64,000 bases of DNA from Arthrobacter sp. MYb229 (lineage in GTDB: Bacteria > Actinomycetota > Actinomycetes > Actinomycetales > Micrococcaceae). The translations under genes and the position numbers were made by a program. The stretch spans positions 124,001-188,000 of the forward strand of contig NZ_PCPS01000002.1 of NCBI RefSeq assembly GCF_002975405.1, read 5' to 3'. Below the pieces are notes generated by a model that was not told where the DNA came from, made no database searches, and saw only the letters and a list, made by a program, of their open reading frames with translations. Positions 5,593-38,215 of the stretch are shown here, in pieces. Position 1 is the first letter of the stretch; each line of letters starts with the position of its first letter.

Positions 5593-5678
5593 ACGGCTTT
5601 AAAGAAACTTATTGAAGAATTTGAGTAAATCACTGGCGCGTGCGAAATTCTCCATGTATGCTGAATATTGTGATTGGG

Positions 5679-5695
5679 AAGTCTCAATGAGACTT
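5679..5695. promoter_or_regulatory. 17-bp palindrome, operator-like
   Basis: AAGTCTCAATGAGACTT is a perfect inverted repeat with 8-bp arms around one base. It lies 80 nt before the first of three small ORFs (GTG at 5775), where a promoter or operator for them would be expected. No confident -10/-35 pair was identified. The binding protein is unknown. Confidence 0.45.
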
Positions 5696-5774
5696 GCGGA
5701 TCAAAAAGACAATACTAAGTGAGTCTCGGGCTTTTGCGCGATTGACTCGGACAGATTTTTAGGAGGTGGGAAAC

Positions 5775-5903
5775 GTGATTACAAATCGAGATAACTGGAA
5801 TTATGGCGGCATGCGATCAGGCAAAATGGCCTTTTCAAATTGCTGGTTCGGCTTTGCCGCGCGCCATGGCGTTTCCCCTGCCTCCGGAATGATGGATTCC
5901 TAG
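5775..5903 (+). CDS. micro-ORF a (42 aa), possible leader peptide
   Basis: GTG-started 42-codon frame with the strongest ribosome-binding site in the area: AGGAGGTGGG ends 4 nt before the GTG. The peptide is polar at first (VITNRDNWNYGGMRSG) and then aromatic with one cysteine (FSNCWFGF). I recognise no family. Its stop is followed 18 nt later by a 10-bp inverted repeat whose right arm contains the AGGAAC before the next ORF. That arrangement resembles ribosome-controlled attenuation, which would make this a regulatory leader peptide. It could equally be a structural small protein. Confidence 0.5.
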   Translation: MITNRDNWNYGGMRSGKMAFSNCWFGFAARHGVSPASGMMDS

Positions 5904-5921
5904 ACTTCTACGAATTCAAGC

Positions 5922-5974
5922 AAAAGTTCCTGGGGCGGTCAGTCAGTAATCGACATTCTCCCTTAGGAACTTTT
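5922..5974 (+). promoter_or_regulatory. hairpin masking a ribosome-binding site, attenuator-like
   Basis: AAAAGTTCCT (5922-5931) is the exact reverse complement of AGGAACTTTT (5965-5974). The right arm contains AGGAAC, the probable ribosome-binding site for the ATG at 5978, and runs into T6. The element could act as a terminator, a translational mask, or both. The 33-nt loop is long, so an alternative partner may exist. Confidence 0.45.
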
Positions 5975-5977
5975 TTC

Positions 5978-6133
5978 ATGTCTGCTCCACTTTTTGATAG
6001 CTCTGTTCAACGGGCCGTTCGAACCTCGGAACTCATCTTCGCAGGTCCCGAAAGCCTGAAAGCTCGCGCAGTTTCTACTACGCACCAGGACCTTCCCACC
6101 TCCCCGATCTGTTTAGAAGGGAGGGAACAATAA
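5978..6133 (+). CDS. micro-ORF b (51 aa), unknown
   Basis: A 51-residue soluble peptide starting MSAPLFDSSVQRAVRTSELI and ending LEGREQ. AGGAAC lies 7 nt before the ATG and is the right arm of the 5922-5974 hairpin. The stop overlaps the next start as TAATG, so b and c are probably translated together. No signal peptide, membrane helix or known motif is visible, and I do not recognise a family. The overlapping junction and spaced ribosome-binding sites are the evidence that this is coding. Confidence 0.5.
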   Translation: MSAPLFDSSVQRAVRTSELIFAGPESLKARAVSTTHQDLPTSPICLEGREQ

Positions 6134-6252
6134 TGAAAAAGCGTTTTGCTAAGAACCGGAAGCAACTTGATAGTGCCGAATTAAACCGCCGACTAAGTCA
6201 GCGGGAGTTGGTCAACCATGTGCCACCGGAAATGTACCTCCGTATCCGATAG
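6133..6252 (+). CDS. micro-ORF c (39 aa), very basic
   Basis: A 39-residue peptide starting MKKRFAKNRKQLDSAELNRR, rich in Lys/Arg and probably helical, possibly nucleic-acid binding. GGGAGGG lies 7 nt before the ATG, and the start overlaps the stop of ORF b (TAATG). No family was recognised. It is the last of the three frames before a GC-rich hairpin at 6329-6354. A further open frame from ATG 6303 (57 codons, AGGAAGGGG upstream) runs through both downstream hairpins and is not called. Confidence 0.5.
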   Translation: MKKRFAKNRKQLDSAELNRRLSQRELVNHVPPEMYLRIR

Positions 6253-6328
6253 TTGAGCTCAACGCCATTACCGTTGTTGCCAACTACAGGAAGGGGTGCG
6301 AAATGAACTCGCAAACAATTCAGCAGAG

Positions 6329-6354
6329 GCCCGCCGGCCTATCAGCCGGCGGGC
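6329..6354 (+). terminator. GC-rich hairpin after micro-ORF island
   Basis: GCCCGCCGGC / GCCGGCGGGC form a perfect 10-bp stem around a 6-nt loop, 76 nt after the last micro-ORF. The tail TTCTCC is only weakly T-rich, so efficiency is uncertain. Confidence 0.6.
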
Positions 6355-6398
6355 TTCTCCGCGTCCGGGGCAAGCCGCGCGCTATAGAAGGAGCATAC

Positions 6399-6452
6399 AA
6401 AAAGATCCGTGCATGGAACTCTATTCCAGAATTCCACGCACGGATCTTTTTT
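6399..6452. terminator. bidirectional terminator between micro-ORF island and ino1
   Basis: AAAAAGATCCGTGC at 6399-6412 pairs with GCACGGATCTTTTTT at 6438-6452, with further TGGAA/TTCCA pairing inside. An A run on one side and a T run on the other make it usable in both directions. It lies 20 nt downstream of the ino1 stop codon, so it surely serves ino1. Confidence 0.8.
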
Positions 6453-6472
6453 GCTTCGTCCCGGGGGACTTT

Positions 6473-38097: not shown

Positions 38098-38215
38098 GAA
38101 TCATGAGCGTCAGCTAAAGGCCCTGGCTAGCTGGCCGGCAACCCTCTATACGGTAGCGGGGTGCTCCAGGTGAAGATTCGGTGTCGCGCAACACCGCACG
38201 ATACAAGTACCGCAC
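38098..38215 (+). ncRNA. SAM riboswitch (SAM-I/IV superfamily, SAM-IV-like)
   Basis: The core reads ATGAGCG, then GCTAAAGGCCCTGGCTAGC, GGCCGGCAACCCTC, CGGGGTGCTCCAGGTGAAGA, closely matching the actinobacterial SAM-IV/SAM-I-IV consensus. GAATC (38098-38102) with GATTC (38175-38179) forms the closing stem, and CCTGG with CCAGG an inner one. A GGTGT/ACACC hairpin follows at 38180-38195. Binding of S-adenosylmethionine should lower expression of the flavin reductase gene 107 nt downstream. Confidence 0.85.

Follow-up and report, generated by a model that had tools for sequence, protein, structure and literature searches.

Introduction

In the translational attenuation of erm and cat genes, the leader RNA forms either the pairings 1:2 and 3:4 or the competing pairing 2:3, a mechanism by which the downstream ribosome-binding site is hidden. 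Amino-acid leader peptides of Actinobacteria are built from a leader frame followed by alternative stems. To our knowledge, there are few descriptions of leader-controlled genes that span only about 40 to 50 codons, and loci of this size tend to be passed over in annotation.

Two further systems are relevant here, of which the DUF1127 uORF of S. meliloti appears by analogy to be the nearest known in logic to the locus described below, with toiL-topAI of E. coli next. In S. meliloti (PMC12218461), the ribosome-binding site of the short uORF can form base pairs with C-rich codons within its own frame. This uORF lies ahead of a gene whose product is small, rich in arginine and without a clear function, and it has been proposed to sense ribosome availability and translation efficiency. 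In toiL-topAI (PMC12121999), a toxin-antitoxin system is controlled by a uORF that responds to several antibiotic classes, and ribosomes stalled on this uORF are proposed to alter the RNA structure over the next ribosome-binding site.

Results

Organization of the locus

The window analysed is a stretch of 64,000 nt from Arthrobacter sp. MYb229 (contig NZ_PCPS01000002.1, positions 124,001 to 188,000), and all coordinates refer to it. An earlier note on this DNA, made from its letters alone, had described three small frames of 42, 51 and 39 codons with ribosome-binding sites, the last two overlapping as TAATG, together with an upstream 17-bp palindrome and a 10-bp stem that covers the ribosome-binding site of the second frame and runs into a T6 tract. 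All of these features are present (Table 1): the TAATG overlap of ORFb and ORFc lies at 6133, the palindrome AAGTCTCAATGAGACTT at 5679-5695, and the stem is formed by AAAAGTTCCT (5922-5931) with AGGAACTTTT (5965-5974), T6 being at 5971-5976. The start of ORFa is preceded by TAGGAGGTGGG, the AGGA ribosome-binding site of ORFb lies inside the second arm of the hairpin, and that of ORFc lies within the end of ORFb. The locus seems to be a stand-alone operon made up of a candidate promoter, a structured 5' UTR, the leader frame ORFa, the linked ORFb and ORFc, and a closing hairpin.

Table 1. Features of the locus, in window coordinates.
Feature	Position	Strand	Remarks
Candidate promoter pair TGGCG (5634-5638), 18-nt spacer, TATGCT (5657-5662)	5634..5662	+	Permissive two-box pattern
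5' stem P1 (RNA hairpin), palindrome at tip, AAU loop	5672..5702	+	23-nt element kept in the genus
P2 hairpin	5721..5748	+	Covariation
Segment 1, ORFa ribosome-binding site GGAGGTGGGAAAC	5762..5774	+	Complementary to the ORFa end
ORFa, leader frame, GTG start, 42 codons	5775..5903	+	Stop at 5903; strong ribosome-binding site
Segment 2, ORFa end, GTTTCCCCTGCCTCCGGAA	5871..5889	+	Complementary to segments 1 and 3 (duplexes, permutation tests)
Segment 3, hairpin 5' arm, AAAAGTTCCTGGGG	5922..5935	+	Can pair with segment 2 or segment 4
Segment 4, 3' arm including the ORFb ribosome-binding site, then T6	5960..5976	+	
ORFb, ATG start, 51 codons, core SELIFAGPESLKAR	5978..6133	+	TAA at 6133; AGGA ribosome-binding site
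ORFc, ATG start, 39 codons, basic, ends PPEMYLRIR	6133..6252	+	
Hairpin between ORFc and ORFd, loop CATTAC	6260..6276	+	Loop and inner pairs kept in the genus
ORFd (tentative), start codon and frame entering final hairpin 6329-6354	6303..6354	+	

Conservation and distribution

The stretch 5540-6460 matches all 18 Glutamicibacter genomes (the window genome included) at 67-100% identity, the match being split into two pieces in two of them. Each of the 18 carries a single locus match, ORFa, ORFb and ORFc can be read in every one, and the 23-nt palindrome element is present with at most one mismatch throughout. When up to three mismatches were allowed, the 23-nt pattern was found in 38 of 295 family genomes: 18 of Glutamicibacter (g1), 15 of Paeniglutamicibacter (g23), three of an A. 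rhombi-like genus (g18) and two others. The reversed pattern, used as a control, gave one match among those listed, in G293, and the matches in G099 and G027 proved on inspection not to be this locus. Profiles of ORFb and ORFc recovered the pair in Paeniglutamicibacter. A scan of genome_contigs (84,980 species) with the palindrome pattern returned 25 stretches, all in records titled Arthrobacter, Glutamicibacter, Paeniglutamicibacter or Micrococcaceae bacterium; species named in these records include Glutamicibacter ardleyensis, protophormiae, soli, nicotianae, uratoxydans and creatinolyticus, among others.

Merging gave 35 distinct loci (18 Glutamicibacter, 14 g23 and three g18). Three of the 25 stretches (L123, L134 and L135) are not among them, having too little DNA after the palindrome, L134 being a repeat genome; one of the 15 g23 genomes with the pattern, G138, gave no locus and is outside the 35. 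The earlier note had staked its reading on conservation of the frames and start codons in relatives, and ORFa, ORFb and ORFc were found in 35/35 loci, one of which has an N inside ORFa. The ORFa frame is accompanied by a strong ribosome-binding site in all 35.

To cover further genera, stretches of up to 5.4 kb around and downstream of the cca end were taken in 40 genomes belonging to 28 genera. Searches with ORFb or ORFc profiles turned up relatives, judged clear or probable, in g11, g21 and g27; on inspection, g5, g25, g31, g19, g8, g26 and g28 carry the same arrangement with products that have diverged. In g10 and g20 only the layout was recognisable, and this more weakly in g14, g7 and g32; g24 has the operon about 57 kb from cca, and g30 has remnants only. 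Nothing was recognised in 12 of the 32 sampled genera (g2, g3, g4, g6, g9, g12, g13, g15, g16, g17, g22 and g29), among which g29 contributed no sequence and the g9 stretch was shortened. A layout test requiring two strong ribosome-binding sites with frames of 18-60 codons, 100-500 nt apart, a criterion chosen after the loci had been seen, picked out 10/40 loci in 8/28 genera, against 0/40 on the opposite strand. The protein sequences change rapidly and the layout persists.

Searches at the level of the order found a diverged ORFc set in 3/297 genomes and an ORFb set in 4/297, all in the locus's own family. These models are insensitive, the ORFc set having missed G072 (the second g31 genome) and the ORFb set genera that show the layout, so that absence outside the family is not firm. 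A phage origin was considered and rejected: 17 pattern matches in viral contigs yielded no confirmed case.

In one g30 locus (L168, genome G046), ORFa, ORFb and ORFc have apparently been lost and, by eye, the 5' element GTGATTGGGG..CCAATGG is kept, as are ORFd and its hairpin directly before an fhs-like gene.

The 5' untranslated region

Of the 35 loci, 34 (all but L090) match a permissive two-box pattern ahead of the palindrome, and 18 of those 34 have TGGCG or TGGCA as the first box. A sigma-70 scan reported no site. The candidate promoter pair would put the transcript start near 5669.

In stem P1, 97.6-100% of the cells are paired and there is hardly any variation within the genus, so this stem gives no covariation evidence there. 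By eye, the stem differs in g11 and g25 and the AAU loop is retained; since the palindrome also lies after the inferred transcript start, we favour reading it as RNA. A protein-binding operator is possible for a palindrome of this kind and was set aside in favour of RNA, as the element sits just past that start. P2 has double-sided changes in 10 of its 11 pairs. Scored as a whole, the P1/P2 structure, which came from folds of the same sequences, reached a covariation score of 0.338, with 0.175 in shuffles (0/500 as high) and no more than 0.095 for slid versions; in the number of additional pair types it did not exceed the shuffles (138/500). We interpret the 5' UTR as a covarying structured RNA.

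Rfam 15 gave no match at gathering score over the locus (five were below threshold), nor in eight relatives outside g23. A hammerhead-like CTGATGA between segments 3 and 4 in g23 was rejected by eye, the rest of the core being absent and the motif being absent in g1. The only Rfam match at gathering score within the window is a SAM-IV riboswitch at 38099-38215.

A four-segment leader

The leader has the predicted layout of a four-segment attenuator: segment 2 is complementary both to segment 1 (pairing 1:2) and to segment 3 (2:3), and segment 3 is complementary to segment 4 (3:4). With genera and leader starts chosen after the loci had been seen (starts by eye in several genera) and one representative from each of 17 genera, the 1:2 duplex energy averaged -20.9 in cis versus -17.8 when permuted, with 2 of 20000 permutations as low. 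Pairing of the ORFa end with the 110 nt after its stop, which counts any pairing in that stretch and not segment 3 alone, gave -34.1 versus -31.6 (86/20000) in the same 17 genera. Leaving out five weak-leader genera (g7, g10, g26, g28 and g32) changed these figures to 8/20000 for 1:2 and 73/20000 for the 110-nt test. In g20, for example, GGAGGTTGC lies opposite GCAGCCTCC; GGAGGTGG and CCNCCTCC are more usual elsewhere.

The 3:4 stem has 94.4% of its cells paired over 26 distinct rows and is nearly invariant, the one compensatory change (G-C to A-U, at one pair) occurring in two g23 loci. Its covariation of 0.038 was lower than the 0.069 of a control slid by +1, and the stem is therefore supported by position and not by covariation.

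Our main reading, to which we give a probability of roughly one half, is that the locus is a stand-alone operon in which leader attenuation, driven by ribosome traffic on ORFa, controls the linked ORFb and ORFc. We infer that the leader would gauge this traffic as follows. With no ribosome present, segment 2 would cover the ribosome-binding site of ORFa (1:2) and the 3:4 stem would hide that of ORFb. During free translation to the ORFa stop, ribosomes would cover segment 2, so that 3:4 forms and little ORFb and ORFc is made; in Glutamicibacter the T run may then also stop transcription. A ribosome held up at the ORFa start, or shortly past it, would leave segment 2 free to capture segment 3 during RNA synthesis, and formation of 2:3 would leave the ribosome-binding site of ORFb open, allowing both proteins to be made. 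The trigger would probably be slowed initiation or early elongation, as caused by a ribosome-targeting antibiotic, cold or a shortage of charged tRNA, and not one amino acid.

In folds of partial transcripts ending after segment 3, with the ORFa start masked, the expected number of 2:3 pairs was at least four in 18/18 Glutamicibacter and 13/13 g23 loci, compared with 9/18 and 10/13 when unmasked; in g18, 2:3 as defined was found in 0/3. Masking the ORFa end abolishes 2:3 by construction, the mask itself forcing the result for a ribosome at the stop. Equilibrium folds of the full leader showed no switch: in Glutamicibacter, mean access to the ORFb start was 0.34 for the free RNA, and placing a ribosome on ORFa gave 0.35 (at its start), 0.34 (six codons further) and 0.32 (at its stop). 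In g23, masking the start of ORFa reduced access from 0.32 to 0.28, opposite to the model. L122, with its N in ORFa, was omitted from both kinds of fold. As the ORFb start did not open at equilibrium, any switch must be kinetic and occur during RNA synthesis. The conflict between equilibrium and partial-transcript folds is the main weakness of the attenuation model. The earlier proposal of leader-type attenuation is partly supported, by frame conservation, selection on ORFb and ORFc, the cis pairings and covariation in P2, with the equilibrium folds standing against it.

Transcription termination and Rho

The lowered access in g23 and the slid control that outscored 3:4 reduced our confidence in the main model and raised that in a rival, namely transcription attenuation under ORFa, either intrinsic or dependent on Rho. 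Free translation would here expose C-rich RNA or let 3:4 terminate transcription, stalled ribosomes would prevent this, and ORFb and ORFc would be regulated as in the main model. The equilibrium folds, in which no switch is seen at the ORFb start, fit this explanation, as does the S. meliloti DUF1127 leader, which is reported to act via Rho (PMC12218461). A run of five or more T after the stem is present in 17/18 Glutamicibacter loci, and C/T-rich, G-poor gaps precede ORFc in other genera by eye; in g10, g20 and g28, where no ORFb was recognised, such a C/T-rich gap lies between the leader and ORFc. Against it, the T run is absent from the g23 and g18 loci examined (0/13 listed Paeniglutamicibacter, 0/3 g18), the terminator scan of the window did not list the 3:4 stem with its T6, and the ribosome-binding site of ORFb lies within the stem in both g1 and g23, which points to control of translation. 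We regard this rival as possible if doubtful. The terminator-like stem with T6, which the earlier note had included in its attenuator-like layout, is in its T run a detail of Glutamicibacter, and the proposed mechanism is better placed in competition between the stem over the ORFb ribosome-binding site and the ORFa end (g1 and g23). In Glutamicibacter, termination of transcription may come on top of this, and where genera show C/T-rich gaps Rho may be at work.

The 3' end of the operon

In the 6260-6276 hairpin, the CATTAC loop and five inner pairs are kept in 18/18 Glutamicibacter loci, two of the inner pairs showing changes from C-G to T-A; the outer pairs are open in many loci. Further on, an ORFd-type frame with PAG was found by script in 34/35 loci, and the frame passes through the final hairpin without a stop. 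A stricter filter, which asked for a ribosome-binding site and a start, retained 4/18 Glutamicibacter loci, the window not among them. A start with a ribosome-binding site precedes the final hairpin in g23 (13/14) and also in g18, g5, g25, g19, g26, g8, g21, g10 and g24 loci; none was recognised in g31, g11, g20 and g27.

On an extended reading, the locus would be a stress operon, widespread in Micrococcaceae, whose fast-evolving micro-proteins, new ribosome or RNA stress factors, are made only when ribosomes are slowed. Both mRNA ends would act as sensors of this state. The 5' sensor would be ORFa, whose ribosome-binding site pairs with the closing codons of that frame; the 3' sensor would be ORFd, which begins shortly ahead of the final hairpin and lacks a stop, so that ribosomes would reach the end of the mRNA and ribosome rescue would decide what becomes of the message. 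The ribosome-binding site of ORFd in just four of 18 Glutamicibacter loci lowers the odds of such two-ended sensing, and we consider this reading unlikely.

Neighbouring genes

In relatives the common order is presumably cca, a phosphatase-like gene, the locus, and then fhs and ino1; in g18, Paeniglutamicibacter, g27 and g30 loci, what we take to be an fhs-like gene follows the locus and shares its strand. A gene resembling that for formate-tetrahydrofolate ligase (fhs) follows the operon on the same strand in L117, L118 and L121. This arrangement, which we recognised by eye or from a motif, raises the possibility that ORFb and ORFc are extra leader frames and that the whole locus is one long leader of fhs. 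In the window genome, fhs (a PF01268 match) is 137 kb away and ino1 faces the locus in opposite orientation, and in g24 the operon stands apart from cca; these distances indicate that ORFb and ORFc are not merely the leader of a neighbour, and both are under purifying selection in Glutamicibacter (see below). With fhs elsewhere in the window genome, we dropped this as the whole explanation and give it little credence.

A long inverted repeat with T runs at 6396-6455, listed on the minus strand, is likely a terminator between the operon and ino1; the sub-threshold Rfam microRNA matches at the same position look like chance.

Coding constraint on the three frames

Pooled pairwise dN/dS values, from pairs that differ by no more than 35% and are not independent of each other, were 0.23 for ORFb and 0.15 for ORFc in Glutamicibacter (121 and 95 of 153 pairs kept) and 0.38 and 0.24 over 12 of the 14 Paeniglutamicibacter loci, without L107 and L122 (66 and 62 of 66 pairs). 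For ORFa the value was 1.05 in Glutamicibacter, representing 32 close pairs of the 153, and 0.46 over the same 12 Paeniglutamicibacter loci (66 of 66 pairs). Read in the +1 and +2 frames, ORFb and ORFc gave 1.29-2.38. The comparison of synonymous and non-synonymous change that the earlier note had called for therefore finds ORFb and ORFc constrained in Glutamicibacter and ORFa not. Both ORFb and ORFc appear to encode genuine proteins kept by purifying selection. The ORFa peptide looks free of constraint in Glutamicibacter, where the frame would serve mainly as a path for the ribosome. Substitutions in ORFb and ORFc of this genus are concentrated at third positions, and this, with the presence of the layout in 18/18 genus genomes and 35/35 loci, argues that the layout is beyond chance.

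A stall at a specific sequence is a further alternative, in which, in the presence of a small molecule, the nascent peptide would arrest at the end of ORFa (..SPASGTA.. or ..SPTSGT.DS) in the manner of the TnaC and Erm leaders. The last residues of ORFa are indeed the part most alike between g1 and g23. The same codons form base-pairing segment 2, which can account for their conservation, dN/dS of ORFa is near 1 in Glutamicibacter, and several other genera end ORFa in unrelated residues; we judge this explanation improbable. By eye, the 34 complete ORFa sequences have no run of a single codon in common; what runs there are remain short, for example GGG in some Glutamicibacter loci and the initial MMM of L107.

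The earlier note had placed the controlled genes in no known family, and the ORFb and ORFc peptides tested gave no Pfam or NCBIfam match above cut-off. When 13 of these peptides were compared with Pfam, DUF1127 was not found and the sole hits, DUF7071 (E 0.025) and AtzH-like (E 0.086), were both under the cut-off. The structure model of ORFc is a helix at low confidence (pLDDT 66) and that of ORFb is mostly without structure, also at low confidence (pLDDT 61). The suggestion that the locus is toxin-like finds no support, as no Pfam or NCBIfam match reached the cut-off: a small toxin or toxin-antitoxin locus, for which two linked genes and the small, basic, tentatively helical ORFc could speak, is very improbable given the largely unstructured ORFb model, the single match in each of the 18 Glutamicibacter genomes and the unconfirmed viral matches.

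Discussion

The locus shares with the DUF1127 uORF a ribosome-binding site complementary to codons of its own frame, and differs in where the complementary element lies: in S. meliloti, a C-rich element is at the uORF start and is reported to act via Rho, whereas here the element is at the ORFa end and competes with the stem over the ORFb ribosome-binding site (PMC12218461). The products differ as well, the ORFb and ORFc variants tested having no match to DUF1127. In toiL-topAI, the uORF controls a toxin-antitoxin system (PMC12121999), whereas the products here have no family match and no toxin role was seen. Compared with erm and cat attenuation, there is no resistance gene here, the leader peptide is unconstrained in Glutamicibacter, and the part of segment 1 is played by the ribosome-binding site of ORFa itself. 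Compared with the Actinobacterial amino-acid leaders (PMC1262725), ORFa has no shared run of one codon and no biosynthetic gene follows.

The earlier note had suggested that the locus was not described before, and our search of the open-access literature, in which no paper on it was found, is consistent with this. We put it at about even odds that the locus is a uORF sensor of ribosome traffic that drives new micro-protein families. We assign it neither to DUF1127 nor to a known riboswitch or toxin-antitoxin family. The likely job of ORFb and ORFc would be a small trans-acting stress response, in which the basic and perhaps helical ORFc may, as a guess, bind RNA or ribosomes.

Conserved throughout one genus, and with counterparts that can be recognised in many others of its family, the locus offers a test of ribosome-traffic sensing without a specific stall peptide, and provides two protein families of no known function as a starting point.
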